Source: Candidatus Thermoplasmatota archaeon
GTDB lineage: Archaea > Thermoplasmatota > SW-10-69-26 > JACQPN01 > JAIVGT01
NCBI GenBank assembly: GCA_035541015.1
Contig: DATLFM010000012.1
Coordinates: forward strand, 1 to 33,616
Length of the DNA: 33,616 nt
Reading direction: 5' to 3'
The notes under the pieces: generated by a model
Databases searched by the model: none
Told to the model about the DNA's origin: nothing
The model's input: the letters and a program-made list of their open reading frames with translations, nothing else
In this document: piece by piece, positions 821 to 26,675 of the stretch
Position numbering within the stretch: the first letter of the stretch is position 1
Layout of the letters: each line of letters starts with the position of its first letter
Position numbers and translations under genes: made by a program

Positions 821-1638
821 AGCCTCCCACGCGCGTGGGCATCGTGGCGCGCGCGGACATGCCCGAGCGAGTGAAGGTGGCCGCCGAGGTCGCCTCGCTC
901 CTGCGCGGCCGCGTGGAGCTTGTGGCCAAGGACGAGCTCGCCTCCCCGCTGTCGCTCCCCGGCGAGCCGCTTGCGCAGATGCGCGCCGACGTCATCGTCA
1001 CCATCGGCGGCGACGGCACCATCCTCTACACGCTCCAGCAGAACCCCGCGCCCGTCTTTGGCGTCAACACGGGCGAGCTCGGGTTCCTCACGGAGATCCT
1101 GCCCGCCGACTTGCGCGCGGGCCTCGACCGGCTGCTCTCGGGCGACTTTGCCCTCGAGGAGCGGACGAAGGTGGCCACGCGCCTCAACGGCGAGCGGCTG
1201 CCCGACGCAACGAACGAGGCGGTGCTCAAGGCATCGCGCGCAAGCAAGATGCTGCGCCTTCGCATCGCGCACGACCGCGACCTCATCGACGACGCGCTTC
1301 GCGCCGACGGCGTGATCGTCGCCACGCCCACCGGATCGACGAGCTACGCCATGAGCGCCGGCGGCCCCATCGTCGACCCGCCGCTTCCGGCCCTCATCCT
1401 CGTGCCGATCGCGCCCTTCAAGCTCTCGTCGCGGCCGCACGTGTTCCCCGCCTCCGACACGCTCGAGATCGAGATGCTCGCGCCCGGGAAGGACGCCGTC
1501 GTCGTCCTCGACGGGCAGTTCGAGCGTCCCATCGGCGAAGGCGACCGCCTCGCGTTCACCGGCTCCGAGCAGAAGGCGCGCTTCGTACGCTTCCGCAAGC
1601 ACGGCTTCGAGCGCGTGCGAAAGCACCTCGTTCGGTAG
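817..1638 (+). CDS. nadK: NAD kinase
   Basis: A 273-residue ATP (or polyphosphate)-dependent NAD kinase that makes NADP. The diagnostic GGDGT loop is at residues 64-68, NEAV at about 133-136, and the glycine/serine-rich TPTGSTSYAMSAGGPI block at 170-185. The C-terminal beta region (VVLDGQ) is also as expected. The start is the GTG at 817, in the GTGA overlap with the preceding phosphatase stop. It gives a normal family N-terminus (VGIVAR); the reading frame is open further upstream, but that would add unrelated residues inside the phosphatase gene. Context suggests a two-gene unit balancing NAD and NADP. Confidence 0.95.
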   Translation: MKPPTRVGIVARADMPERVKVAAEVASLLRGRVELVAKDELASPLSLPGEPLAQMRADVIVTIGGDGTILYTLQQNPAPVFGVNTGELGFLTEILPADLRAGLDRLLSGDFALEERTKVATRLNGERLPDATNEAVLKASRASKMLRLRIAHDRDLIDDALRADGVIVATPTGSTSYAMSAGGPIVDPPLPALILVPIAPFKLSSRPHVFPASDTLEIEMLAPGKDAVVVLDGQFERPIGEGDRLAFTGSEQKARFVRFRKHGFERVRKHLVR

Positions 1639-1670
1639 GTTCAAGTCTCCCCACGCACGTCCGCGGGGTC

Positions 1671-2081
1671 ATGGCGCAAGTGCAGAAGACGATCGAGGTT
1701 GCCGCGACCCCGGAGGAGGTCTGGGACGCCCTTGTGAACCCGAAGAAGCTCTCCGCGTGGCTCGAATGCGAAGCGGGCTTCCGCCGCCACGGCACCGCCG
1801 TGCACGCGGGCGACTCGTTCCGTCTCGACTGGGGCGAGGAATGGGTCGCCACCGGCGAGGTCGTCGACGCAAAGCCTGGCGCGCGGCTTGTCACGACGTG
1901 GGAATGGGAAGGCGACGACGAGGAGACCGAGGTCGTCTACGAGCTCGCGAAGACGCCCAAGGGCACGCGGCTCTCCCTCACGCACCGCGGCTTCGAGGAC
2001 GAGGAGACGGCAGAGGAGCACGGCGACAACTGGGAAGCCTACCTCGCCAACCTCGCGACCGTCGCGGGCGCCCGCCGATGA
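1671..2081 (+). CDS. SRPBCC/START-like (AHSA1-type) domain protein
   Basis: A 136-residue single-domain protein of the SRPBCC superfamily, AHSA1-like branch. It opens with the typical KTIEVAATPEEVWDALVNP helix-strand start, contains W-E-x-G-type strands, and ends in a long helix with the conserved GDNWEAYLANL pattern. Such proteins bind hydrophobic ligands or act as Hsp90-cochaperone-like folds; the ligand is unknown. The ATG at 1671 lies 32 bp after the NAD kinase stop. An AT-richer stretch (GGTTCAAGTC, near 1639-1648) sits about 27 bp upstream, compatible with a leaderless transcript. Its TGA overlaps the next ATG (ATGA), coupling it to the JAMM peptidase. Confidence 0.85.
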   Translation: MAQVQKTIEVAATPEEVWDALVNPKKLSAWLECEAGFRRHGTAVHAGDSFRLDWGEEWVATGEVVDAKPGARLVTTWEWEGDDEETEVVYELAKTPKGTRLSLTHRGFEDEETAEEHGDNWEAYLANLATVAGARR

Positions 2082-2518
2082 GCCTCTTCGACTGGTTCCG
2101 CGGCGCGCGCGAGCAGCCGGAGACATGGCCGCGCCGCCCGCCCCCCCGGCGCGTGACGAAGATCACCAAGCAATGCCTGCGCTTCATCTGCGAGAGCGCG
2201 AAGTCGACGCACCCGCACGAGTTCGGCGCCGCGCTTCGCGCCGAGGACGACACGGTCGTCGAGCTCATCGTCGTTCCCACGGAATCCGGCCCCGTCTCCG
2301 CGCACATGCAACTCTGGAGCCTGCCGCTCGACAGCTCCGTCGTGGGCACCGTGCACAGCCATCCCGTAAGCGGCGTGCCGCAGCCAAGCGACGAGGACAA
2401 GTTCCTCTTCTCCAAGTTCGGCCACACCCACATCATCGTGGGCCGCCCCTACGGCGTGCACGACTGGCGCGCCTTCGACCACCGCGGCGACCCCATCCCG
2501 CTGGAAGTCGTGGCTTGA
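2078..2518 (+). CDS. JAMM/MPN+ metallopeptidase (archaeal COG1310-like)
   Basis: A 146-residue JAB1/MPN/Mov34 metalloenzyme. The zinc site is complete: Glu48 (HEFG), His93 and His95 (HSHP), Ser104 and Asp107 (PSDED). The spacing from the second His to the Ser is eight residues, one more than the usual seven. The C-terminal FGHTHIIVGRPYG and DWRAFD blocks match the stand-alone archaeal family. Relatives remove ubiquitin-like SAMP modifiers or cleave at ubiquitin-fold C-termini. No ubiquitin-like or E1-like gene lies nearby, so the substrate is open. The start is the ATG of the ATGA overlap with the START-like gene. A basic, Arg/Pro-rich N-terminal 25 residues precede the domain. Confidence 0.88.
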   Translation: MSLFDWFRGAREQPETWPRRPPPRRVTKITKQCLRFICESAKSTHPHEFGAALRAEDDTVVELIVVPTESGPVSAHMQLWSLPLDSSVVGTVHSHPVSGVPQPSDEDKFLFSKFGHTHIIVGRPYGVHDWRAFDHRGDPIPLEVVA

Positions 2519-2581
2519 CGAACATTCGACGCTTGCGCCCGAAACGACAAGGTGAAGCCCCGCCCACCGCATGATCGTCGC

Positions 2582-3298
2582 ATGCAGCTTGTCGAGGGCG
2601 AGGCGGTCGTCCGCGTCCTTCGCCCCCACCCCTTGGCCGTCCTCCCACGCTACGCCCCCGCCGCGTACCTTGCCGCCCTCTCCGCCGGCGCGTACGTCCT
2701 CTTCGCAAGCGACGCGTGGCGGGCCTTCCTTGGACGCGACGGCCCCGCGACCGCGTGGGCGCTTGCCGCCGCCGTCGTCGCGCTTCCCATCCTCGCCGCC
2801 GGCTGGATCGCCTTCTGGCGCCTGCGGTCGCGGCTCGCGCTTGCGCTGTGGTTTGCCACGGCCGCCGCCGTCGCGCTTGCGGCCCCCCTCACCGGCCCGG
2901 CCCACGCGCTCGCCTTCCCGATCGCGCTATCCGGCGCCGCGCTTGCGGCGCTTGCGCACGGCGAGCTTGCGCGGCGCGCGGAGCGGTGCGTCGTCACGAA
3001 CTACCGCCTCGTGCTGCAGCGGGGATGGCCCGCCCGGGAGGAGCGCTCGATCCGCTTCCCGCGGCTGCTTGACCTCGAGGTCCGCCCGCTTCCGCTTGTG
3101 CCCGTCGGCGCGCTCGTCGTGCGCCTGGACTCGGTGCGGGAGGAGATCGCCGGAGGGCCCGCGCAGATCCGCGGCGTCGTGCGCCCGCAGCGCGAGCGAG
3201 ACCGCATCCTCGCGCTTGCCCGAAAGTCCGCGCCGCCTGCGTACCTTGGCGACAAGGGCGAGCAGGTGCGGCGCGTCGAGGAGATCCTTCGACACTAG
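2582..3298 (+). CDS. Membrane protein with C-terminal bacterial PH-like domain
   Basis: A 238-residue polytopic protein. The N-terminus (MQLVEGEAVVRVLRPHP) resembles the short amphipathic lead of bPH2/YdbS-type proteins. Four hydrophobic segments follow at about residues 17-40, 55-78, 84-103 and 107-127. A soluble domain then opens with R-C-V-V-T-N-Y-R-L-V-L, the signature strand pair of bacterial PH domains that bind or scaffold at membranes. I chose the ATG at 2582; a GTG at 2552 is in frame, but its extra ten residues do not look like the family. It ends 10 bp before a 3'-end palindrome. The function is unknown beyond membrane association. Confidence 0.7.
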   Translation: MQLVEGEAVVRVLRPHPLAVLPRYAPAAYLAALSAGAYVLFASDAWRAFLGRDGPATAWALAAAVVALPILAAGWIAFWRLRSRLALALWFATAAAVALAAPLTGPAHALAFPIALSGAALAALAHGELARRAERCVVTNYRLVLQRGWPAREERSIRFPRLLDLEVRPLPLVPVGALVVRLDSVREEIAGGPAQIRGVVRPQRERDRILALARKSAPPAYLGDKGEQVRRVEEILRH

Positions 3299-3408: not shown

Positions 3409-3621
3409 ATGTCCGGCAAGGAACCGAACGGAACGTTGCGCAGGCTGTTGATCGTGGGGCTGCTCGTCGCCGCAAGCTTTGCCGTGCCGGCCGCCTCAGC
3501 CGGGGATTGCGACGACAATCAAACCAACCAGTTCCCCGTCTGCACGCCCAAGGTGCAAGTGCTCGACCGAACCGTGCTTCACAAGACGGAAGTCGTCTGC
3601 GTCGGCGACAACTGTGACTAG
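3409..3621 (+). CDS. Small secreted Cys-motif protein, tandem copy 1
   Basis: A 70-residue precursor. The n-region is MSGKEPNGTLRR, then a hydrophobic core (LLIVGLLVAASFAVPAASA) and probable cleavage before G-D-C-D-D. The mature peptide is only about 38 residues, with four cysteines: one near the N-terminus, one mid-chain, and the terminal C-V-G-D-N-C-D. A Shine-Dalgarno-like GGTGA lies 6-10 bases upstream of the ATG. It is a close paralogue of the next gene; the two share the signal peptide, VQVLDR, VCVGDNCD and even long DNA identities. The family is not recognised; two disulfides or a metal site are possible. An exported peptide signal or cell-surface plug is speculation. Confidence 0.75.
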   Translation: MSGKEPNGTLRRLLIVGLLVAASFAVPAASAGDCDDNQTNQFPVCTPKVQVLDRTVLHKTEVVCVGDNCD

Positions 3622-3657
3622 GCACCCCGACAACAAACAAACGCTGAGGTGACGACC

Positions 3658-3867
3658 GTGTCCGGCAAGGAAACGAACCGAACGCTCCGCAGGCTGTTGA
3701 TCGTGGGACTGCTGGTCGCCGCAAGTGTTGGCGTTCCGGCGGCCTCGGCGGGGGATTGCGACGACGGACAGCGCTACGACGCCCTCCTCTGCTTGCCGTG
3801 GAAGGTGCAGGTGCTCGACCGGGTCGTGGTGCGCGAGATCGTCTGCGTCGGCGACAATTGCGACTAG
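3658..3867 (+). CDS. Small secreted Cys-motif protein, tandem copy 2
   Basis: A 69-residue paralogue of the gene at 3409. It has the same basic n-region, signal core and start of the mature part (GDCDD), and the same C-terminal V-C-V-G-D-N-C-D, with a divergent centre (RYDALLCLPWK) that keeps the mid-chain Cys. The start is GTG 3658, preceded by a strong GAGGTGA at 3647-3653, and it aligns exactly with the start of copy 1. A GTG at 3649 is in frame but overlaps that ribosome-binding site. It is followed 14 bp later by a 24-bp palindrome. No known family is recognised. Confidence 0.75.
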   Translation: MSGKETNRTLRRLLIVGLLVAASVGVPAASAGDCDDGQRYDALLCLPWKVQVLDRVVVREIVCVGDNCD

Positions 3868-7771: not shown

Positions 7772-7791
7772 CGCGATGAACATTCATCGCG
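7772..7791. repeat. 3'-end palindrome copy 3 (CGCGATGA/TCATCGCG)
   Basis: Perfect 8-bp arms CGCGATGA and TCATCGCG flank the loop ACAT. The TGA stop of the minus-strand secreted-protein gene (7784-7786) is part of the stem. It keeps the GCGATGA/TCATCGC core of the other copies, with the outermost pair changed from T-A to C-G, a compensatory change that favours a paired structure. Confidence 0.75.
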
Positions 7792-8383
7792 GCTTTCGCC
7801 GCGCGAGGAGAAGCGCCGCCAGCGCAAGAAGCCACAGCGGCGCCGCTGCAAACGGCGTCGAACGCTCGCGCGTCGTCGGCGGCGGATCGTCGTCCCACGC
7901 GGCGGAGGCCTGCCCGCAATGTCCAGGCAGGACCGATTTCTCCACGCGCACGCTTTTCGAATCCTGCGACACGGCGTAGGGCGGGTTGTCGTGCGCGACG
8001 GCGGCAACGGCCGCGCCGCCCTCGCGGCTGCAGTCGCGCGGCCACGTGAACGAGAGCACGAACGCGTGCTCGTACGCGCGGCGCTCCGGTGGCGTGCAAT
8101 CGCGGCCCGCGAGGACCTCGATCGTCGCGGGCGAGACGGAGAGCGAGGTCATGGGAAGCCCCGTCGCTTCGAGCTCGATTCGCGTGGCGCGGGAAGCGGG
8201 CCCGCTGCAGGCGATGGTGTACGTGACCGTTCCGTCCACGCTTGCGAAGTACGCGTCGCCGAGGTCGATCCGCTCCCACGCGAACCGCACGGTCGTCGTG
8301 GTCTCGACGCCCACGCTTGGCTGCGCGAGGGCGGGCGCTGCGGCCAGCAGGAGCGACGAAAGGGCGAGCCATCGCGCGCGCAC
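7784..8383 (-). CDS. Secreted, C-terminally membrane-anchored protein (family copy 1)
   Basis: A 199-residue precursor. The signal peptide is VRARWLALSSLLLAAAPALA, followed by about 145 residues of predicted beta-rich, Ig-like sequence with paired cysteines. A C-terminal hydrophobic anchor (LWLLALAALLLA) is followed by RRKPR. The same layout and weakly similar core (GTVTYTIAC, then Cys-containing strands, then VAAVAHDN) recur in the genes at 10467 and 11108. The GTG start at 8383 lies 27 bp from the shared box at 8408. Its TGA lies in a palindrome. It is probably displayed on the outer face of the membrane; the role is unknown. Confidence 0.7.
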   Translation of the reverse strand: MRARWLALSSLLLAAAPALAQPSVGVETTTTVRFAWERIDLGDAYFASVDGTVTYTIACSGPASRATRIELEATGLPMTSLSVSPATIEVLAGRDCTPPERRAYEHAFVLSFTWPRDCSREGGAAVAAVAHDNPPYAVSQDSKSVRVEKSVLPGHCGQASAAWDDDPPPTTRERSTPFAAAPLWLLALAALLLARRKPR

Positions 8384-10462: not shown

Positions 10463-10474
10463 TTGTTCATCGCA
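10455..10474. repeat. 3'-end palindrome copy 4, containing both convergent stop codons
   Basis: Perfect 8-bp arms TGCGATGA and TCATCGCA flank the loop TTGT. The TGA of the plus-strand MFS gene (10460-10462) and the TGA of the minus-strand gene (10467-10469) occupy equivalent positions in the two arms. With one bulged A, three further pairs extend the stem outward. It looks like a bidirectional 3'-end element. Confidence 0.8.
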
Positions 10475-11075
10475 AGCGTCGCCCGTTGCGGAGACGCGCC
10501 GCGCCGGCGGCCGCGACGGCGCCAATCGCCGCAAGCGCAAGCGCGCCTTCGATCCCCGGAACCGCGTTGGGCGCGGCCTCGTCGTCCTGCGCGGAGCTCA
10601 TCTCGACGCGCTCGCCGGCCGGCCGGTCCTGCGTCACGACGGCCCACTGGGCCTCGCCTTGGCTTCCGTGGTAGGGCATGTTGTGAGCGGCCTCCGCCAC
10701 GAGGCGGCCCATGGCCGTCTGTCCCGGCGGCGCCTTCGACAGCATTAGGCGGAGGGCAAAGGGCGCCGAGACGGACTGCGTCCCCAGGCACGGGGAATGG
10801 ATCGGCAGGAAAACCTCGCTGGGCTCCGGGATCGCGGTCAGCCACGGCGCGTCCCATTCCACGAAGAGGGAGACGCGCGTCGACGGGCGCTCGGGCGGAA
10901 GCGAGCACGCGTAGGCGTAAACCACCTCGCCGGCCACGACGGTGACGCCGTCGGCGGGGACCGGCTCGGACGGGACGGAGAGCGAGATGGCGGTCGTCGT
11001 TGCGGTCAACGGAAACTGCGCGGAAGCAAGCGGCGCGAGCGCGACAAAGATGCACAACCCCAGGAAGAATCTCAT
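10467..11075 (-). CDS. Secreted, C-terminally anchored protein (family copy 2)
   Basis: A 202-residue precursor. The signal peptide is MRFFLGLCIFVALAPLASA, then a beta-rich core with GEVVYAYACSLPPERPSTRV, VEWDAPWL and LPIHSPC. The C-terminus is AVPGIEGALALAAIGAVAAA followed by basic residues. The tail resembles a PGF-CTERM-like sorting signal (a V-P-G-x-E lead, hydrophobic stretch, Arg cluster), but that is inference. The ATG at 11075 was chosen because it begins the signal peptide; an ATG at 11111 would put twelve hydrophilic residues in front of it. It is closely related to the gene just upstream at 11108 (shared DAPWL and LPIHxPC). Confidence 0.72.
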   Translation of the reverse strand: MRFFLGLCIFVALAPLASAQFPLTATTTAISLSVPSEPVPADGVTVVAGEVVYAYACSLPPERPSTRVSLFVEWDAPWLTAIPEPSEVFLPIHSPCLGTQSVSAPFALRLMLSKAPPGQTAMGRLVAEAAHNMPYHGSQGEAQWAVVTQDRPAGERVEMSSAQDDEAAPNAVPGIEGALALAAIGAVAAAGAARLRNGRRLR

Positions 11076-11107: not shown

Positions 11108-11710
11108 TCATGCGGTTTTTGGATAGGTCGTTTGACGCGGGCGCAGCGCGCGGGCCGCTAACAAGGCCAAGCCCCCGAGCGTCGGAACCGCCTCGTACGC
11201 AGGAACGGCATGGATTGGTTCTTCATCAAGCGTGTTCTTCGAAAGGGCGATCTCGCGCTCGATGTGGAGGTCCCAATCCACGTGCGCCGAGGTGCCCTCG
11301 TGCGGATCGTTGCGCTCGGCGACGGCACCCACCGTAACCGTCGCGGAACTTGTCGAGGGCGCGTTCTTCGCGATGGCGCGGATCTCGAAGGACCCCGTCG
11401 CGGTCACCGGGGACGCCAACGCGCAAGGGAAATGGATCGGCATCTGCAGCTCGCGAGGCTCGACGGCAAGTTCGAGCCACGGCGCGTCCGACTCCGCGAA
11501 GAGGGAGACCGTCGTTGCGGAGCGTTGCCCCGGCAGCAGGCAAACGTGCGAGTAGCGGATCTCGGCTGGCACAACGACCACGCCGTCGATTGGAAGGGGC
11601 TCGCCCGGGGGCATGATGCGCACCGAGAGCGTCGTCGGCGTCACCGACGCCTGCGCGCTGGCGATGGACGCAAGCGCAAGCAATACGAGCAATCCAACGA
11701 GGAGCCTCAC
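11108..11710 (-). CDS. Secreted, C-terminally anchored protein (family copy 3)
   Basis: A 200-residue precursor. It has signal peptide VRLLVGLLVLLALASIASA, then a core parallel to copy 2 (AEIRYSHVCLLPGQRSATTV, ESDAPWLEL, MPIHFPC) and a C-terminal AVPAYEAVPTLGGLALLAARAL anchor with a basic tail. The GTG at 11710 has GGGGGGTG five bases upstream and a CGAAAACTTC promoter-like stretch further up (about 11750-11759). Copy 2 starts 32 bp after its stop, so the two are likely one operon produced by tandem duplication. A surface structural or adhesive role is possible but not shown. Confidence 0.72.
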   Translation of the reverse strand: MRLLVGLLVLLALASIASAQASVTPTTLSVRIMPPGEPLPIDGVVVVPAEIRYSHVCLLPGQRSATTVSLFAESDAPWLELAVEPRELQMPIHFPCALASPVTATGSFEIRAIAKNAPSTSSATVTVGAVAERNDPHEGTSAHVDWDLHIEREIALSKNTLDEEPIHAVPAYEAVPTLGGLALLAARALRPRQTTYPKTA

Positions 11711-18255: not shown

Positions 18256-18633
18256 ATGGAGACCCGAAGGGAAGCTGGGCGCGACGCGGAGGAGCGGGAA
18301 ACGCAGACGCCGGGCGGGCGGACCGAGGGACGAGGCTTCGGCGGTTCGTCCCTCGACCGGTCGGAGATCGGCCGCCGGGGCGGTGAAGCGGTGAGCCGCA
18401 ACCGCGACCACATGGCCGAGATCGGGAAGCGGGGAGGCCAGACCGTGAGCCGCAACCGCGACCACATGGCCGAGATCGGCCGCAAGGGCGGCCAGACGGT
18501 GAGCCGCAACCGCTCGCACATGGCGGAGATCGGACGCCGCGGCGGCGTGGCGCGCGGACGCCAGCTCTCGACGCGGCGCCCGGAGGGCGAACCCACGACC
18601 GGCGCGCAGGAGCCGGGCGAGGCCGAGGCCTAG
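18256..18633 (+). CDS. KGG-repeat stress-type protein
   Basis: A 125-residue, highly charged, Gly-rich protein with no hydrophobic core. Three tandem 18-residue repeats (V-S-R-N-R-[DS]-H-M-A-E-I-G-[KR]-[KR]-G-G) follow a partial first unit (SEIGRRGGEA). This is the KGG/Con-10-like motif of stress-induced small proteins known from bacteria and fungi. It is probably intrinsically disordered and binds nucleic acid or protects under stress, but this is not proven in archaea. The ATG has a strong GGGGAG ribosome-binding site 9 bp upstream. The acidic tail (EPGEAEA) contrasts with the basic repeats. Confidence 0.82.
   Translation: METRREAGRDAEERETQTPGGRTEGRGFGGSSLDRSEIGRRGGEAVSRNRDHMAEIGKRGGQTVSRNRDHMAEIGRKGGQTVSRNRSHMAEIGRRGGVARGRQLSTRRPEGEPTTGAQEPGEAEA
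18391..18552 (+). repeat. Three tandem 54-bp units inside the KGG gene
   Basis: Units begin at 18391, 18445 and 18499, each opening with GTGAGCCGCAACCGC. Units 1 and 2 are almost identical over their first 36 bp. They encode the 18-residue repeats and have no spacers. Confidence 0.85.
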
Positions 18634-18648
18634 GATCCCGCGGTCAGG

Positions 18649-19059
18649 CTACCGTCGGGCGGGCTGGACGAGCTCCACGAGCGCGCCTCCGGTGGATTTG
18701 GGGTGCAGGAACCCCACGAGGGAGCCTGCGGCCCCCGCGCGCGGAACGGCGTCGACCAAGCGCGCGCCGGCGGCCGCGGCCTCCGCGAGGGCGGCAGCGC
18801 AATCGTCCACCTCGAAGGCCACGTGATGCAGGCCGGGTCCGCGGGAGGCGAGAAACTTCCCCACGGGGCCCTGCGGGTCGAGCGTCTCCAGGCATTCGAT
18901 CTTGGATTCGCCCACCGGGTAGAAGCGGACGGCCACGCGTTGGCTTGCGACGGTCTCGTCCTTCGTGGCCACGAGGCCAAGGAGGCCTTCCCAGACGGGC
19001 GAGGCGGCAGAAAGGCTCTCGACGGCAACGCCCACGTGATGGATCCGTAGGAGGCGCAC
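18649..19059 (-). CDS. mce: Methylmalonyl-CoA epimerase (VOC family)
   Basis: A 136-residue glyoxalase/VOC-fold enzyme that interconverts (2R)- and (2S)-methylmalonyl-CoA. Recognisable blocks are the N-terminal IHHVGVAVESLSAA, the central GPGLHHVAFEVDD, and the C-terminal FLHPKSTGGALVELVQ with the metal/catalytic Glu. The length equals that of the family. The GTG at 19059 lies 27 bp from a TATA-like GGCATTTGG on the minus strand (near 19083-19091), so the gene is probably leaderless and separate from the kinase cassette upstream. Functionally it belongs with the mutase large chain at 24966. Confidence 0.9.
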   Translation of the reverse strand: MRLLRIHHVGVAVESLSAASPVWEGLLGLVATKDETVASQRVAVRFYPVGESKIECLETLDPQGPVGKFLASRGPGLHHVAFEVDDCAAALAEAAAAGARLVDAVPRAGAAGSLVGFLHPKSTGGALVELVQPARR

Positions 19060-19102
19060 GGGCGGCAAGCGGCGCTCCCGCCCAAATGCCTTGCGACGCC
19101 CG

Positions 19103-19483
19103 TCAGCCGTTTGCGAGGATGGCGTCGCAGTTGGGCCAGCAGGAAACGATCGTGCTCGCCTGCTGGTTGGACCCTTCGGGGAGGTCGTAGACGGCGCGGA
19201 ACGTTCCAAGGAGCATGTCCCCGATGTGCGCGCGCAGAGGCTGGTCCGGGGCCGCGATGCCTTCGAAGACGAGCCGGCCGTCGGGCGCGTAGACCGAGAG
19301 CTTCGTGTTGCCGCGGTTCACCGTGAGCTCAAGCGACAGGCTTGCGGGCACGCTGAACGTCACGTCGACCGTGGTGTCTTTCTCGAACCGGAATTGGTAC
19401 GTTTGGGTCGCGCTTGCGCTGCCCGGGACGACGAGCAGCGCAATCACAAGCAGGCACGTCGGGACGGTCGTTTGGGGTCTCAT
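19103..19483 (-). CDS. Small secreted C-W-P-N-C protein coupled to kinase 1
   Basis: A 126-residue precursor. The signal peptide (about residues 1-25) ends VVPGSASA. A beta-rich mature part of about 100 residues (TTVDVTFSVPASLSLELTVN, KLSVYAPDGRLVFEG) ends in S-C-W-P-N-C followed by eight residues. Its ATG overlaps the kinase 1 TGA (ATGA), so the two are translationally coupled. The only similar protein in the window is the one at 21668, which is coupled in the same way to kinase 2. No named family is recognised. An exported ligand, sensor subunit or kinase inhibitor are all possible. Confidence 0.75.
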   Translation of the reverse strand: MRPQTTVPTCLLVIALLVVPGSASATQTYQFRFEKDTTVDVTFSVPASLSLELTVNRGNTKLSVYAPDGRLVFEGIAAPDQPLRAHIGDMLLGTFRAVYDLPEGSNQQASTIVSCWPNCDAILANG

Positions 19484-21600
19484 GGGGTCGCCTCCGTCGT
19501 TGGAACCGTGGGAACGTGGGGGCCGCGACCGGTGGGAACGGTCAGGGGCAGCGCGTGGGCCATCTCCCCTGCGCTTTGGAAGCGGAGGCGCGGATCCTTG
19601 CGCAGGCCCTTCTCGAGCCACGCGTTCATCTCCGGCGGAACGCCGGGCAGCGGAAGCCGGGGCGGCTCCTCCATGACGCGCCGCCGCATCTCGCCCGGAT
19701 CCAGGCCGCGAAGCTCAAGGTAGGGGCGTGCTGCCAGCAGGAAGTACGCGATCGCGGCCACGCCGTACAGGTCGCTGCGGACGTCCGTGGCGCCGCCGGC
19801 GGCCTGCTCCGGGCTCATGTAGGCGGGCGTGCCGGGAAGCAGGCCCATCGCCGCAAGGCTCGTGCGGGCGCCCGGGACGAACGCGATTCCAAAGTCGACG
19901 ATGCGCGGCATGCCGCGCGCGTCCAATACGACGTTGGCGGGCTTGAGATCGCGGTGGAGCACGCCCGCCGCGTGCACGGCGGCGAGAGCGTCGAGGATGC
20001 CGCCGCAGATCTCCGCAACGCGCTCGGGTGGCAGGGGACCGCGCGAGCCCACGAGGCGCTCGAGGTTGTCTCCCTCGACGTACTCGGTGACAAGGAACAG
20101 GGAATGCGGCGTCTCGAGGACGTCGTGCACCTGCACGACACCGGGATGGTCCACGGCGGCCGGCGCCTGGCCCTCCTGCAGGAACGATTCCCGCATGACC
20201 TCGCTTGCCGACCATGCCGGATGGAGCTGCTTGAGCACCACGTCGCGCCCGGCCTTCTCGTCCCGCGCGAGGAACACGCGGCCGAAGGCGCCTCGTCCCA
20301 GCATTCGCACGACGCGGTAGCGGGGCGGAAGATCCTCGAGGCCGCCCGACGCCGAAGGGTCGGCCTGCGAGCGGGCGAGGCTCTCCAGGACCTCGCAGTC
20401 GCGTCGCGTGAGCCCCATCGAGTCTTGAAGCGAGGAGAGCCACGCGCGCGTTTCGGGCGTCTGCAGGCTCGATTCCCGGACGGCCTGGATCGCGGAGGCT
20501 TGGTAGACCTCGAACTTCCGCCGCTCGATGGACGTGGGCTCCTCCGCGCGCAGCCACCGGCGCGCCGCGCCGTGGGCGGCGCCGCCGGCGATGAGGCCCG
20601 CCCCGACGCTTGCGGTGGCGGCGACGGTGGGGCCTGCCGCGACGCTTGCAGCCCCGACGAGTCCCGCGGCGGCCAGGCCCGCGGCCGGACCCACCGCGCG
20701 ACGGAGGCGAAGCTCCAGGTCGAACAGCTGGTACTTGACGATCGCGTAGGCGACGATCGCAAGCCCCGCAAGCCGCCACAGGCCGGCCGAGTCCACGAGC
20801 GGAAGGCCGGCTAGGATCGGCGCGACGCTTCCCAACCCCACGATCGCGGGAACGCCAAGCCACGCCGCAAGCCACGGCGAGCCCACGGGGTCGCGCAGGA
20901 GCCGAACGGTGACGACTCCGACGACAAGCGCCCCCACCGCAAACAGGCCGACGTAGGCGGCAAGCGTGATCGGCCCAAGCGCCTGCTCCAGCACCGAATA
21001 GCGCGCAAGCGCCTCGGCCAGGTTGCGCGCGGTGGCGTACGCCACGTAGGCGCCAAGGCCGGCGAGGACGAGCCGCGCTTGGTCCCTTTCGATGGGGACG
21101 AGGTCGCCGCCGCGCAGGCTCCGCTCGAGCAGGAAGAGGGCGGCCACGAGCGCGCCGAACTGCGGAACGTGCAAAAGCCAGGGAGCAAGCGGGCCCCATT
21201 GCGCCGAGTAGCCGGTGGGACCGCCAAAGGCGCCCGCGAGCAGGAGCGGGTACGCGAAGATCACGAGGAGAACGGCCGCGACGGCGGGCGCAAGGAAGGG
21301 CGCAAGCGCGGCGCGCCGCATGGCCAGGGGACCCGTGGCGCGGGGGAAGACGGAGGCGAAGTAGAGGATGAACACGTACTGGGGGACGATGAAGGCGATC
21401 GAGAGGCCGTAGAGAATCGAGGCCGTGCGCTCGTCGGCGGCCGAGGCGGCCAAGTTCGACAGGACGACCTGCACGCCAAGGACGGCCGCGAAGGCCCCGA
21501 AGAACCGGCCGGGGGTGCGACGCTGCGTTCCGAGGAGGGCCGCCCCCAAGGCCGCCAGCATCACACCGGAAACGACGTTGAGCAGGGTGGCAGGCTCCAC
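19480..21600 (-). CDS. Membrane Ser/Thr protein kinase with N-terminal polytopic sensor (kinase 1)
   Basis: A 706-residue protein. Residues 1-330 carry about ten hydrophobic segments; the stretch ending AIVKYQLFDLELRLRRAV resembles the seven-helix input module of some histidine kinases. A helical linker (about 350-410) contains RRKFEVYQASAIQAVRESS and GLTRRDCEVLESLAR. The kinase domain starts at 428: G-R-G-A-F-G loop, Lys457 (VVLKQ), His549-R-D-L-K-P-A-N, Asp569-F-G, and S-P-E-Q. All catalytic residues are intact, so it should phosphorylate Ser/Thr in the cytoplasm. The GTG start has CTCTTAACC about 38 bp upstream. The C-terminal 25 residues are Thr/Pro-rich, a possible autophosphorylation tail that an FHA protein could read. 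Confidence 0.88.
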   Translation of the reverse strand: MEPATLLNVVSGVMLAALGAALLGTQRRTPGRFFGAFAAVLGVQVVLSNLAASAADERTASILYGLSIAFIVPQYVFILYFASVFPRATGPLAMRRAALAPFLAPAVAAVLLVIFAYPLLLAGAFGGPTGYSAQWGPLAPWLLHVPQFGALVAALFLLERSLRGGDLVPIERDQARLVLAGLGAYVAYATARNLAEALARYSVLEQALGPITLAAYVGLFAVGALVVGVVTVRLLRDPVGSPWLAAWLGVPAIVGLGSVAPILAGLPLVDSAGLWRLAGLAIVAYAIVKYQLFDLELRLRRAVGPAAGLAAAGLVGAASVAAGPTVAATASVGAGLIAGGAAHGAARRWLRAEEPTSIERRKFEVYQASAIQAVRESSLQTPETRAWLSSLQDSMGLTRRDCEVLESLARSQADPSASGGLEDLPPRYRVVRMLGRGAFGRVFLARDEKAGRDVVLKQLHPAWSASEVMRESFLQEGQAPAAVDHPGVVQVHDVLETPHSLFLVTEYVEGDNLERLVGSRGPLPPERVAEICGGILDALAAVHAAGVLHRDLKPANVVLDARGMPRIVDFGIAFVPGARTSLAAMGLLPGTPAYMSPEQAAGGATDVRSDLYGVAAIAYFLLAARPYLELRGLDPGEMRRRVMEEPPRLPLPGVPPEMNAWLEKGLRKDPRLRFQSAGEMAHALPLTVPTGRGPHVPTVPTTEATP

Positions 21601-21667
21601 GGGATCGCCGCCACCGTACCCACTCCCGCTTTGGTTAAGAGGATGTATCGCAGGATCGGACGGACAG

Positions 21668-22054
21668 CTACCCGACGAAGAAGCAATCCGGCCAGCATTC
21701 GAACGTGCCTTGCGTCAGGGCGTCGCCGGAGGAGGTCGAGACCACAAGCGTCCACACCCCGGCGACGGCGTCGGACACGCCAATCGTCGCTGGTTGGCCG
21801 GGGGTTCCCGACGCCTGCGAATGCTCGACGCCCGAGGGCGTCAGCACCGAAATCGTCACGCCGCCCGTCGCGACCGACACGGACACGGCGATGGAGCCGA
21901 TCGAGGCCAACTGGTATCCGACGGAATACGAGCCGGTGCCCGAGACGTCGTACGAAACGGCGCTTGCGCTCGCGCCTCCGGCGAGCACCACCTGCGCTGC
22001 GACGAGCAATCCGGCCAGCATGCAGCCGCGTCCGCGAGTTGTCCTGGGCGTCAA
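21668..22054 (-). CDS. Small secreted C-W-P-D-C protein coupled to kinase 2
   Basis: A 128-residue precursor. I chose the TTG at 22054, whose last two bases are part of the kinase 2 TGA (TTGA overlap). It supplies a basic n-region (TPRTTRGRGC) to an otherwise uncharged signal core (MLAGLLVAAQVVLAGGASASA). The in-frame ATG at 22021 would begin directly in the core. The mature part is Ser/Thr/Gly/Val-rich and beta-like (SIAVSVSVATGG, AGVWTLVVSTSSGD), ending F-E-C-W-P-D-C-F-F-V-G. It is paralogous in layout and C-terminal motif to the gene at 19103. Its function is unknown. Confidence 0.72.
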   Translation of the reverse strand: MTPRTTRGRGCMLAGLLVAAQVVLAGGASASAVSYDVSGTGSYSVGYQLASIGSIAVSVSVATGGVTISVLTPSGVEHSQASGTPGQPATIGVSDAVAGVWTLVVSTSSGDALTQGTFECWPDCFFVG

Positions 22055-24222
22055 TTGAGCACCGTCCTTAGCTCCACCGCGCGCGAGCGCGCGTGGTCGG
22101 AAAGGAAGGCCGCCATCTCGGCGGCGGATTGGAATCGCCGCGCCGGGTCCTTGGAGAGGCCCTTGGCAAGGAACCGCTCGACCCAGGCAGGCTGGCCCGC
22201 AGGGATGTCCGGCTCGGTGACCGCGATCGCGTTCCGGACTTCGGCGACCGAGCGCCCCTCGAGCTTCAGGTACGGGCGGCCGGTGATGGCGTAGTGGAAC
22301 ATGGCGGCGACGGCGTAGAGGTCGGAGCGGGCGTCCACGGGCCCGCCGATGGCCTGCTCGGGCGCCATGAAATGCGGCGTGCCGGGGGTCAATCCAAGCG
22401 AGGTGAGCGAGGGGTCCGCCTCGTCCGTGTGGGCGATGCCAAAGTCGGCGAGCTTGGCCCGGCCGCGCGCGTCGAGGAGCACGTTTGCCGGCTTGATGTC
22501 GCGGTGGCAGATGCGCTCGACGTGGATGGCCGCAAGGGCTCCCAGCACGTCGCGGATCACGGCCGACGCCTTGGCCGGAGGCAGCGGGCCCTCGCGGGCG
22601 ACGAGCTCGTCGAGCGTGCCGCCCTCGACGTATTCGGTGACGAGGAAAAGGTCGTCGTCGTGGGCCACCACGTCGTGGATGCTCACGACGTTGGGATGCC
22701 GCACGCGGGCGAGGATGCGGGCCTCCCGCAGGAAGGCGGCGCGCACGGCTTCGGTCGTCGTCCAGGGCGGCAGGAGCTGCTTCACGACGACGCGCCGCTG
22801 CAGCGTGGAGTCCGTGGCGAGGTACACGCGACCGAAGGTCCCGTGGCCAAGCACGCGGTGGACGACGTACTTGTCCGGCAATCCCTGCGGATGGAGCCCG
22901 CGCTCGACGGCCGGGGGTCCGCGCTTCACGGCGGCGCGGGCCAGCGCCTCGATCACCCGGCATTCGCGGTCGGAGAGCCCAAGCGAGCGCTGCAGGTGCG
23001 AAAGCCACGTCCGCTCGTGCGACGAAACCTCGTTGCCCTCGCGCAGAAGCTGGATCATCGTCGCCTGGTAGACCTCGAGCTTGCGGCGGTAGAGCGCCTC
23101 GCGGGCGGCCGACTCGTCGGGCCAGAGGTGAGCGGCGAGCCGGTCGGCGGCAAGCCCCGCGCCAAGGCCGATCCCGGCGACGGCCAACGCCACGAGCGGA
23201 AGCTGGGCGAGCGCCACGTCGGGGGGGGCGCGCAGCGGCGCCAGCAGCGGCAAGGACAGGAGCGCGGCGCAGGCGCCCGCGCCCACGGGCACGGCGCGGC
23301 GCAGGCGCACGTCGAGGTCGAACAGCTGCCAGCGCAGGATCGCGTACATGACGATCGCGACGGCGGCAAGACGCCAGAGCCCGGCCGACTCGAGCAGGAA
23401 CGGCGTGCGGAGCAGGATCCCGACGGCGGCCACCGAGGCCGGAAGCGCGATCGTCGCGAGCGCAAGTCCCGGCTCGCCGCGCGCCACCATGCCCGCTCCG
23501 GCCGCGGCCAGGATCACCGCGCTTGCGCCAAAGATGAGGAAGTAGGCCGACACGGTCTCGGGTCCCATGGCGGCGACGAAGGCGGGGAGGCCCGAGAGCG
23601 CCTGGCCCAGCGCGTGGACCACGGCAAACGAGAGGTAGAGGCAAAGGGCGACCGCCACCAAGCGCGCCTGCTCGCGCTCGTGGTGGGCAAGCGGTTGGCG
23701 CGAAGCGCGGTCCATGGCCCAGAGGGCAAGGAAGAACGCCGCCATGCGCGGCAGATGGACAAGCCACGGAGCGAGGCCCCCCCAGGTCGCGTTCCAGGCG
23801 CCCGGCGCGCCCCGCACGCCGGAGAGCAGCGTGTCGGGCGCAACTGCGATGGCCACGGCCGCCGCGGCGGCGGGCGACAGCGCGAGCACGAGAGCGCGGT
23901 TGTCCGCTCCAAGGAGCCCCCCGCGGTGCGGGAAGATCGACACGAAGTAGGCCAGGAAGACATACTGCGGCACGAGGAACGCGATCGACAGCAGGTACAG
24001 GCGGTGCGCAAGCTCGGGCGTGGGCGCCATGGCCGCGCCGTTGGTGACAAGCACCTGCGCGCCCCACGCCACGGCGAAAGCGCCAAAGAACGCGTTGAAG
24101 GGCCGGCTGGGGCGGACGAGGAGGTAGGCACCCAGCACCGCAAGCGGAATGCCCGAAACTGCGTTGAGAAGCAACGTCTGGTCGATCGTTCTCCCCCCGG
24201 GGCCGCGTTGGCGGCCGTCCAC
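22051..24222 (-). CDS. Membrane Ser/Thr protein kinase with N-terminal polytopic sensor (kinase 2)
   Basis: A 723-residue paralogue of kinase 1 with the same order: about ten hydrophobic segments (NAVSGIPLAVLGAYLL onward, closing with ILRWQLFDLDVRLRRAV), the helical linker (RRKLEVYQATMIQLLREGN, GLSDRECRVIEALAR), then the kinase domain from residue 452. Catalytic elements are G-H-G-T-F-G, Lys481 (VVVKQ), His573-R-D-I-K-P-A-N, Asp593-F-G and A-P-E-Q. The GTG at 24222 lies about 20 bp from a CGTTATTGA box, consistent with a leaderless start. Paralogue alignment suggests the functional N-terminus could begin nearer residue 17. The stop overlaps the secreted partner gene. Confidence 0.88.
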   Translation of the reverse strand: MDGRQRGPGGRTIDQTLLLNAVSGIPLAVLGAYLLVRPSRPFNAFFGAFAVAWGAQVLVTNGAAMAPTPELAHRLYLLSIAFLVPQYVFLAYFVSIFPHRGGLLGADNRALVLALSPAAAAAVAIAVAPDTLLSGVRGAPGAWNATWGGLAPWLVHLPRMAAFFLALWAMDRASRQPLAHHEREQARLVAVALCLYLSFAVVHALGQALSGLPAFVAAMGPETVSAYFLIFGASAVILAAAGAGMVARGEPGLALATIALPASVAAVGILLRTPFLLESAGLWRLAAVAIVMYAILRWQLFDLDVRLRRAVPVGAGACAALLSLPLLAPLRAPPDVALAQLPLVALAVAGIGLGAGLAADRLAAHLWPDESAAREALYRRKLEVYQATMIQLLREGNEVSSHERTWLSHLQRSLGLSDRECRVIEALARAAVKRGPPAVERGLHPQGLPDKYVVHRVLGHGTFGRVYLATDSTLQRRVVVKQLLPPWTTTEAVRAAFLREARILARVRHPNVVSIHDVVAHDDDLFLVTEYVEGGTLDELVAREGPLPPAKASAVIRDVLGALAAIHVERICHRDIKPANVLLDARGRAKLADFGIAHTDEADPSLTSLGLTPGTPHFMAPEQAIGGPVDARSDLYAVAAMFHYAITGRPYLKLEGRSVAEVRNAIAVTEPDIPAGQPAWVERFLAKGLSKDPARRFQSAAEMAAFLSDHARSRAVELRTVLN

Positions 24223-24299
24223 GAAGAGCCTGGCGGGTCAATAACGTGCTGTCACAACCCGAGGGACAAACAGACGACGCCGCCAGGGCCGAGTAGCCT

Positions 24300-24965
24300 T
24301 CAACCCGAGGGCGGGGGAATCACCGACTGAAAGACGAGGAGGTTGCGACCAACCCCGACCACGTCGCCGGGCAAAAGCGCGCGAAAGCCGCCCGGCGGCA
24401 GCCGGCGCCAGTTGACGTACGTTCCGTTTCGGCTGAACAGATCGACCACGCCGATCTCGCCGCGCACGCGCGTCACCTCCGCGTGCTCGCCCGAGGTGTA
24501 CGTGTCGAATTCGAGCGAAAGGTCGCACGCGCGGTCGCGGCCGATCCGGACGCGCTCTTGGTTCTCCAGACGCGCCTCCTGCCCGATGTGGGGCCCGTGC
24601 ACGACGATAAGCCGCGGCGAAACGCCGACGGGCGCCACGTCGGTCGGCGGCTTGGGCAGAAGAGCCGTGCGACCGACGAGCGGATCGACGGCCGGCTCGG
24701 GCGAGACGACCCGCCAGAGCATCTCCTGCAGGTTGAACATGCGCTCGGCGACGACGTAGCCTTCGAGCGTGAGGAATCCGGCTTCGACGAGGGCGTCCAC
24801 GCGCCGCCGATCCTCCGGCGGGATCGGGGACGGCGGCGCGCCCGACCGGCGCGCGGCGATGGCGCCCAGCACGCGCAGCGTCTCCGGGTCGGCCAGCACG
24901 GCAAGCGACTCCGACAGACGCTCAAGGAAGCGCGGGTCGGTCACGACGGGATCGGTCGGCGACAT
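24300..24965 (-). CDS. FHA-domain protein with N-terminal winged-helix-like region
   Basis: A 221-residue soluble protein. Residues 12-75 look like a winged helix (ADPETLRVLGAIAARR, RVDALVEAGFLTLEGYVV). Residues 117-215 are an FHA domain with the phosphothreonine-contact pattern G142-R143, S158-x-x-H161 and R179-N180-G181-T182. It should bind phosphothreonine peptides. Its ATG directly abuts the mutase stop (no gap), so it is likely co-transcribed with the methylmalonyl-CoA mutase chain. Downstream, 77 bp separate it from kinase 2. The obvious hypothesis is that it reads phosphorylation by the two kinases and, through the winged helix, may touch DNA. Confidence 0.88.
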   Translation of the reverse strand: MSPTDPVVTDPRFLERLSESLAVLADPETLRVLGAIAARRSGAPPSPIPPEDRRRVDALVEAGFLTLEGYVVAERMFNLQEMLWRVVSPEPAVDPLVGRTALLPKPPTDVAPVGVSPRLIVVHGPHIGQEARLENQERVRIGRDRACDLSLEFDTYTSGEHAEVTRVRGEIGVVDLFSRNGTYVNWRRLPPGGFRALLPGDVVGVGRNLLVFQSVIPPPSG

Positions 24966-26675
24966 TCAGGCGCCCCCCGGGGGTTCGTACTCGCCGAACA
25001 CCTCGCGGAGCGCGCCGCAGATCTCGCCCGTGGTCGCGCGGATCCGCGCGCAGGCGACGATCGCGGGAAGGAGGTTGTCCTCGCGGCGTGCGGCCGCGGC
25101 AAGCTCCGACAGGGCGCTTTGCACGGACCCGGCGTCCCGGCGCGCACGCAGCGCGGCGACAGCCTCCCGCGCGCGCTCCTCCACGGCGGCGCCGATCCGC
25201 AGGAGCGCCGGCGGCTCCTCGTCCGTCGCCGCGTGCGCGTTCACGCCCACGACCGCGCGCGTGCCCTCCTCGACGGCCCGCTGGTGAAGGTACGCGGACT
25301 CGTGGATGCGCCGTTGCATCCAGCCCCGCTCGATCGCGGAGAGGACGCCGCCCTGCGCATCGATGTCGGCGATCAGGCTCGTGGCCTCCTCCTCCAGGTC
25401 GTCCGTGAGCCGCTCCAGGAAAAAGGAGCCGCCGCAAGGGTCGACCGTCGAGGCCACCCCCGATTCGTGCGCGATCACCTGCTGGCTGCGAAGGGCGATG
25501 CGCGCGGCCTTCTCGGCGGGAAGGGCAAGCGCCTCGTCGAAGCTGTTCGTGTGAAGCGACTGGCAACCTCCCAGCACGGCCGCCAGGGCCTGGATCGTCA
25601 CGCGCACGATGTTGTTCTCCGGCTGCTGGGCGGTGAGCATCGAGCCGGCCGTCTGCGCGTGGAAGCGCAGCATGCGCGAGCGCGGGTCCTTTGCGCCAAA
25701 CTCCTTGGCCATGATGCGGTCCCACATGCGCCGCGCCGCGCGGAACTTCGCGATCTCCTCGAAAAGGTCGTTGTGCGCATTGAAGAAGAAGGAGATGCGC
25801 GGCGCAAAGGCGTCCACGGGAAGCCCGCGGGCCACGGCGGCGCGGACGTACTCGCGGCCGTGCGCAAGCGTGAAGCCGAGCTCCTGCGCGGCCGTGGCGC
25901 CCGCCTCGCGGATGTGGTAGCCGGAGACGGAGATCGTGTTCCAGCGCGGGACGTTGCGCGCGCAGTACTCCATCACGTCGACCGTGAGGCGCAGGCTTGG
26001 CGCCGGCGGGAAGATGTAGGTGCCGCGCGCGACGTACTCCTTGAGGATGTCGTTCTGGACCGTGCCGCCACAATCGGCCTGCGCAAAGCCCTGCTCCATG
26101 GCCGTGACGAGGTAGTAGGAGAGAAGCACGGAGGCGGGCGCGTTGATCGTCATGGACGTCGTGACGTCGCGAAGCGGGATCCCGTCGAAGAGACGCCTTG
26201 CGTCTTCGACGCTTGCGACCGAGACCCCGACGCGGCCCACCTCCCCAAGCGACCGCGGATCGTCCGGGTCGAGGCCGATCTGCGTCGGAAGGTCGAAGGC
26301 GACCGACAGGCCCGTCGTGCCGTGCGACAGGAGGTACCGGTAGCGCGCGTTGCTCTCCTCGGCCGTCGCGTAGCCCGCGTACTGCCGCATCGTCCAGAGC
26401 CGACCGCGGTACATGGTGGGCTGCACGCCGCGCGTGAAGGGCGCCGCGCCCGGAAAGCCGAGCTTGCGCGCGGGATCGAAGCCCCGAAGGTCGTCGGGGC
26501 CGTAGACCCGCTCGACCGCGCGGCCCGAGAACGTCGCGAAAGGCCCCGGCCGCTCCGGCGAGCGACGGAGGTGCGTCTCCAGGGTCTCCTTGGCCCAACG
26601 GGCGCGCGGCCGCGGCGCCGTCCCCTTGGCCGCGCGCGCAGGCTTCTTGGCCGGCGTTCGCCTCCCCCGGGTCAC
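24966..26675 (-). CDS. mcmA1: Methylmalonyl-CoA mutase large subunit (catalytic chain, no B12 domain)
   Basis: A 569-residue TIM-barrel chain of methylmalonyl-CoA mutase, converting (2R)-methylmalonyl-CoA to succinyl-CoA. Family blocks are: [53 protein letters not shown], the [13 protein letters not shown] segment, [39 protein letters not shown], and [13 protein letters not shown]. The cobalamin-binding domain is absent, as is normal where it is a separate archaeal subunit; that subunit is not in the window. A 30-residue basic, Lys/Arg/Pro-rich extension precedes the domain. The GTG start is about 27 bp from a TATATG box. It shares its transcript with the FHA gene. Confidence 0.93.

Follow-up and report, generated by a model that had tools for sequence, protein, structure and literature searches.

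To our knowledge, signalling by eukaryotic-type protein kinases in archaea offers few worked examples in which the input is known. The nearest functional analogue of the locus analysed here is found in Mycobacterium tuberculosis, where the transmembrane Ser/Thr kinase PknH is paired with EmbR, a DNA-binding regulator whose FHA domain is needed for their interaction (PMC4601284). The nearest archaeal analogue is the Arn network of Sulfolobus acidocaldarius, which comprises the FHA protein ArnA, ArnB and the kinases ArnC and ArnD (PMC5300886, PMC6509490). In logic, and by analogy, the nearest system is agr of Gram-positive bacteria, summarised in PMC10482373 as the chain AgrD/AIP, AgrC and AgrA. 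A quorum sensing system of Haloferax volcanii that uses a small secreted molecule is called the first characterised archaeal one in a 2026 paper, as cited in PMC13286277. Searches of the open-access literature for archaeal ArsR-FHA kinase systems or for a CXPXC motif returned nothing, which is weak evidence of novelty.

The DNA stretch of 33,616 nt that was analysed (the window) belongs to SW-10-69-26, a lineage of Thermoplasmatota named in PMC9287336. The collection holds seven genomes of this class, and the sample of the phylum comprised 390 genomes. The genomes are metagenome assemblies, some of them fragmentary; genes of the relatives were called with a simple codon-usage caller, and the sample amounts to about eight independent loci. 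The features of the window and the kinase-linked exported proteins (S) of the relatives are listed in Table 1.

Table 1. Kinases (K), exported proteins (S) and regulator of the window, and tailed exported proteins at seven-transmembrane (7TM) kinases of relatives.
Locus	Feature	Position	Strand	Basis
Window	K1, multi-TM (7TM-type) Ser/Thr kinase, 723 aa	24222-22051	-	Pfam Pkinase 5.4e-47; catalytic Lys, HRD, DFG, APE
Window	S1, exported protein, TTG start, 128 aa, tail ECWPDCFFVG	22054-21668	-	ORF and alignment with S2
Window	S1 C-x-P-x-C tail (CWPDC)	21683-21697	-	sequence
Window	K2, multi-TM (7TM-type) Ser/Thr kinase, 706 aa	21600-19480	-	Pfam Pkinase 1e-40; AF2 model; PknB-like fold
Window	S2, exported protein, ATG start, 126 aa, tail SCWPNCDAILANG	19483-19103	-	ORF; beta-sandwich model
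Window	S2 C-x-P-x-C tail (CWPNC)	19127-19141	-	sequence
Window	FHA-domain protein, ArsR-like (shortened) winged-helix N-terminus	24300-24965	-	Pfam FHA 5.5e-12; orthologues beside 7TM kinases
G001:C24	exported protein ending CNPLC, upstream of kinase			
G004:C17	large S ending CKPAC beside 7TM kinase			
G005:C13	S ending CSPNC beside 7TM kinase			
G006:C101	S ending CRPHC, downstream of kinase			
G006:C134	S ending CEPNC, overlapping kinase start			
G076:C59	outside the class; three tandem S, all CRPLC, precede one kinase			

The initial annotation had described two tandem cassettes of a kinase and a small exported protein at 19103-24222 of the minus strand, and all four ORFs were found as given. 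The overlap of stop and start codons was recovered in both cassettes and amounts to 4 nt each (TTGA in K1/S1 and ATGA in K2/S2), and the common C-W-P-[ND]-C end of the small proteins was seen in both as well. An in-frame ATG lies 33 nt downstream of the TTG of S1 (22021), and a start there would remove the K1/S1 overlap; the TTG start aligns with the start of S2 (TPRTT/RPQTT) and yields a signal peptide with a basic n-region. Judged by eye, the N-termini of S1 and S2 are signal-peptide-like, with ASA cleavage sites and without a lipobox. Pairwise alignment gave 44% identity for K1 and K2 along their full length, and 27% for S1 and S2 over 110 aa (E=1e-11). S1 and S2 are thus related beyond the signal peptide, which removes the case, considered in the initial annotation, of mature proteins that have nothing else in common. 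A protein search of the 2.2-Mb window genome found S1 as the only other relative of S2.

In the kinase tree, K1 and K2 group as a fully supported sister pair, so a joint duplication took in both the kinase and the exported protein, behind a single FHA gene; S1 and S2 are likewise each other's closest relatives. On one strand, the gene order is methylmalonyl-CoA mutase (26675-24966), FHA protein, K1, S1, K2, S2 and methylmalonyl-CoA epimerase (about 19062-18649), so that genes of the same metabolic pathway flank the cassettes on both sides. This flanking (18649-26675, -) was not seen in the relatives examined.

Elsewhere in the window, 3409-3867 (+) encodes two tandem, similar small exported proteins of 70 and 72 aa that bear cysteines, the mature part of both beginning with GDCDD and ending with CVGDNCD. 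Three similar exported proteins, each about 200 aa long and anchored in the membrane at the C-terminus, form a local paralogous family on the minus strand (7784-8383, 10467-11075 and 11108-11683). Positions 18256-18633 (+) encode a small protein with four near-identical repeats (NRDHMAEIGKRGGQTVS), which by eye is like a KGG-repeat stress protein and had no Pfam match at E<=0.01.

At a threshold of E<=1e-15, 8 of the 390 phylum genomes contained the 7TM domain of the kinases. An exported neighbour with a C-x-P-x-C tail was found at 8 of 12 seven-TM Ser/Thr kinases (7 genomes, two classes), leaving four related 7TM kinases without an S neighbour. A search of the 390 genomes with a profile of the larger S proteins gave seven full-length matches, and all seven adjoin a 7TM Ser/Thr kinase; the profile otherwise matched short PPC-like segments of different proteins, most of them large. 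No full-length homologue was thus found away from such a kinase in the 390 genomes, and the pairing of kinase and exported protein proposed earlier is supported by this linkage. An exported ligand or sensor subunit of the transmembrane kinase remains the best reading of it. The fixed stoichiometry that had been deduced from the overlap did not hold up, because S lies upstream or downstream of the kinase in relatives, at distances between -19 and about +410 nt, and the overlap is thus not conserved. Overlaps of 4 nt are common in prokaryotic operons.

The kinase of G001:C24 very probably runs on into contig C223, as the contig ends share 61 nt with one mismatch. In the tree, the five S-bearing kinases of G004, G005, G006 and G076:C59 form one solid clade and the kinases lacking S form two solid pairs. 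The distribution of the S partnership needs at least two changes on this tree, with which a single origin of the S-bearing kinases is one of the compatible histories.

The catalytic Lys, HRD, DFG and APE motifs are intact in K1 as well as in K2, which identifies both as Hanks-type Ser/Thr protein kinases, and fold comparison showed the catalytic domain of K2 to be PknB-like. In the AF2 model of K2 (pLDDT 79), 7 to 11 membrane helices are followed by a helical linker and then by the kinase, and the positive-inside rule predicts an extracellular N-terminus and an intracellular kinase. In this modelled topology, the longest outer loop, of about 23 aa, is a hairpin with a largely conserved WGPL, so that the kinase appears to have no extracellular sensor domain; no conserved cysteine was found in the membrane part. 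The membrane part of K2 weakly matched HisKA_7TM (PF16927; E=8e-4, 19.7 bits, below the cut-off of 28.6), and this profile did not match six other members. HisKA_7TM describes 7TM histidine kinases, whereas the output domain here is a Ser/Thr kinase. No relatives of the 7TM domain were found in the plasmid collection. Matches to the PADLOC models PD-T4-6 and MAD6 concern the generic kinase domain alone, without system context, and an anti-phage kinase was therefore rejected. The S-linked 7TM kinase of G006:C101 (5366-3255, -) carries HGN where HRD is expected and DLG at the DFG position and is, on these motifs, probably a pseudokinase.

In the alignment of ten exported proteins, Cys-Pro-Cys of the tail and the start Met are the only invariant positions. 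From residue frequencies, a C-x-P-x-C tail is expected in about 5e-5 per protein, as compared to 10 observed among 529 called proteins; one of the ten is a spurious ORF, and all others adjoin a 7TM kinase. In addition, two mini proteins were found that consist of signal peptide, linker and tail alone, without a body. In G004, the gene of the mini protein (64 aa) stands between those of the large S and of the kinase; in G006, the mini protein (72 aa) is encoded on a different, short contig without a kinase (C181). Each mini tail equals the large-S tail of its own genome over 8 residues, SPGCKPAC in G004 and GRPCEPNC in G006. At the DNA level, these 8 residues differ by synonymous changes only, and no convincing alignment was obtained beyond the tails. 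DNA encoding CKPAC occurs at exactly two sites of the 3.8-Mb G004 genome, in the large S and in the mini gene, and DNA for C-x-P-N-C with a near stop occurs at three sites in G005 and G006 together, all in the tailed genes described here, in a scan that limited x to purine-purine codons. A generic scan for CxPxC and stop misses tails with A/T-ending variable codons, S1 included, and the specific patterns are the decisive ones. Synonymous-only differences between proteins that otherwise do not align, together with the confinement of tail DNA to these genes, show that a peptide of about 8 residues, borne by otherwise unrelated exported proteins, is under purifying selection. By sequence, the conserved element of the exported protein is the tail and not the body.

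Two further genes with similar motifs were noted. In the window genome, G000:C75 1098-1271 (+; L199) encodes a 57-aa exported peptide ending in PPESCLPYC, a possible further mini member of the tail family. Its gene ends 2 nt before a gene whose product combines an exported domain, a TM helix and a pair of winged helices; it is also divergent from another membrane winged helix-turn-helix (wHTH) gene. In G001:C399 (L030), an Ala/Gly/Ser-rich exported protein with CNPFC just past the signal peptide (43-921, +) lies upstream of a histidine kinase with the same 7TM domain (973-3072, +). With its N-terminal motif and its histidine kinase, this locus was rejected as a case of the C-terminal tail and kept as supporting context only.

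S2 is modelled as a beta-sandwich (pLDDT 71), which among solved structures comes closest to GOLD domains and to the jelly roll of Tk-SP, an archaeal subtilase (3afg). The larger S bodies weakly match PPC (PF04151; best 9.6e-4, 20.4 bits, below the cut-off of 25.9). The likeness to PPC/jelly-roll domains of secreted archaeal proteins such as Tk-SP is one of fold only, as S has no attached peptidase and carries the C-x-P-x-C tail. The body would fit a carrier or display domain.

The plan of two genes stood as far as kinase and exported protein are concerned; it had overlooked the wHTH-FHA gene next to K1, the conservation of the tail and the tail-only mini proteins. An FHA-wHTH gene lies beside the kinase or its S in six genomes (that of the window, G001, G002, G005, G006 and G076) and overlaps the kinase by 1-4 nt in three genomes; the kinase of G004 has no adjacent FHA gene. 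The binding residues of the FHA domain are mostly kept overall, and GR/SxxH/NG are kept in the window protein. In the latter, the region of recognition helix and wing is shortened, so that its DNA binding is doubtful and may be lost. Across the class, a motif search identified a Ser/Thr kinase as direct neighbour of at least 20 of the 37 ArsR-FHA genes examined, a lower bound because the motif missed further kinase-like neighbours. ArsR-FHA proteins are numerous in the class. The pairing spans the class and includes kinases with various sensor parts (L087, L088, L090, L094, L109 and the window gene), and it resembles a two-component system built of eukaryotic-type parts. Unlike this wider pairing, the C-x-P-x-C partner is restricted to 7TM kinases.

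Taken together, these results suggest a membrane signalling module that runs from the tail as input via the 7TM Ser/Thr kinase to, usually, the FHA-wHTH regulator, a reading to which we assign a probability of about 0.55. Its support lies at the level of sequence, in the linkage, the conservation of the tail, the predicted topology and the intact catalytic and FHA residues. The exported protein would be the extracytoplasmic input of the 7TM kinase, with its tail probably closed outside the cell as a small disulfide ring. The tail may engage the outer face of the kinase membrane domain and thereby alter kinase activity inside the cell, in either direction. The kinase, or a pThr on its own loop, would then recruit and/or phosphorylate the FHA-wHTH protein, which in turn might change transcription by binding DNA. 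In its mode of action, the tail may be a diffusible pheromone, a tethered self-ligand or a thiol/metal sensor. The residues flanking the Pro are near-identical within a genome and differ between genomes, which favours recognition over bare chemistry, in small numbers and with tandem duplicates that are not independent. A more specific version, which we regard as speculative, is an archaeal peptide-pheromone system in which large and mini precursors carry a species-specific C-x-P-x-C signal, read by a cognate 7TM Ser/Thr kinase and an FHA-winged-helix transcription readout without histidine kinase or response regulator.

Less probable than the main reading is a thiol or metal sensor, in which the Cys pair of the tail senses redox or binds metal and the exported protein reports this state to the kinase, the tail being a chemical sensor rather than a signal that is recognised. 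It would explain why two Cys and Pro alone are invariant in the tail, and the C-x3-C spacing suits metal binding, being known from metal sites such as some copper sites; the G006 mini protein is also encoded near a ZIP-like metal transporter gene, which is a weak hint. However, a bare dithiol needs no particular neighbours, and the variable tail residues are the same within a genome across unrelated bodies, with synonymous-only divergence; in addition, aerobic or saline surfaces would presumably hold the Cys pair oxidised. Less likely again is an accessory subunit driven by its body, whose jelly roll would bind either the kinase or a polymer of the envelope, with a tail that only stabilises or anchors it. 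The retention of a PPC/jelly-roll-like body in most S proteins, also through duplication in S1/S2 and in the three G076 copies, fits such a subunit, but the mini proteins have no body at all and the body sequence is poorly conserved compared to the invariant tail. The position of the tail at the extreme C-terminus, behind an acidic or Ser/Thr-rich linker, is like that of sorting signals; a C-x-P-x-C signal that attaches exported proteins to the surface, unrelated to the kinase, would however be expected on many exported proteins, and with one to three carriers per genome, nearly all by a 7TM kinase, we disfavour it as very unlikely. That the motif merely reflects chance or a recent tandem duplication in the window genome is scarcely credible: one duplication, in line with K1/K2 being sisters and S1/S2 closest relatives, accounts for the window pair alone, and as a general claim it is refuted by linkage and tail that recur, in varying gene orders, in further genera and families and in another class, and by mini proteins whose tails differ synonymously only.

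In the module of tail, 7TM kinase and FHA-wHTH regulator, the likely input, receptor and output adjoin within a single operon, and a synthesisable peptide of about 8 residues is the likely ligand, which makes the reading directly testable. If it is true, archaea own a self-made extracellular signal that is read by a Ser/Thr kinase.

None of PknH-EmbR, the Arn network and agr has the full set of parts found here. As in PknH-EmbR, the gene of an HTH and FHA regulator adjoins that of a transmembrane Hanks-type kinase, in the relatives with a complete HTH and in the window with a shortened one. Unlike PknH, which has an extracellular sensor domain, the multi-TM kinase described here lacks one and is accompanied by a separate exported CxPxC partner. 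EmbR is composed of an OmpR-type HTH, a BTA and an FHA domain, whereas the regulator here combines an ArsR-like HTH with FHA and has no BTA. With the Arn network it shares the use of archaeal Ser/Thr kinases with an FHA protein in regulation, but ArnC and ArnD are cytosolic or partly membrane-associated (PMC5300886) and not 7TM receptors, and the network has no exported partner. No gene for an AgrB-like maturation protease or exporter was found among the called neighbours. As in agr, a self-encoded exported product that bears a peptide, a multi-TM receptor kinase and a regulator are encoded together, and the putative signal is short, contains Cys and has type-specific residues. In agr, AgrC is a histidine kinase and the thiolactone ring is made by AgrB, whereas the locus described here combines a Ser/Thr kinase and an FHA regulator with a carrier that is exported by a signal peptide.
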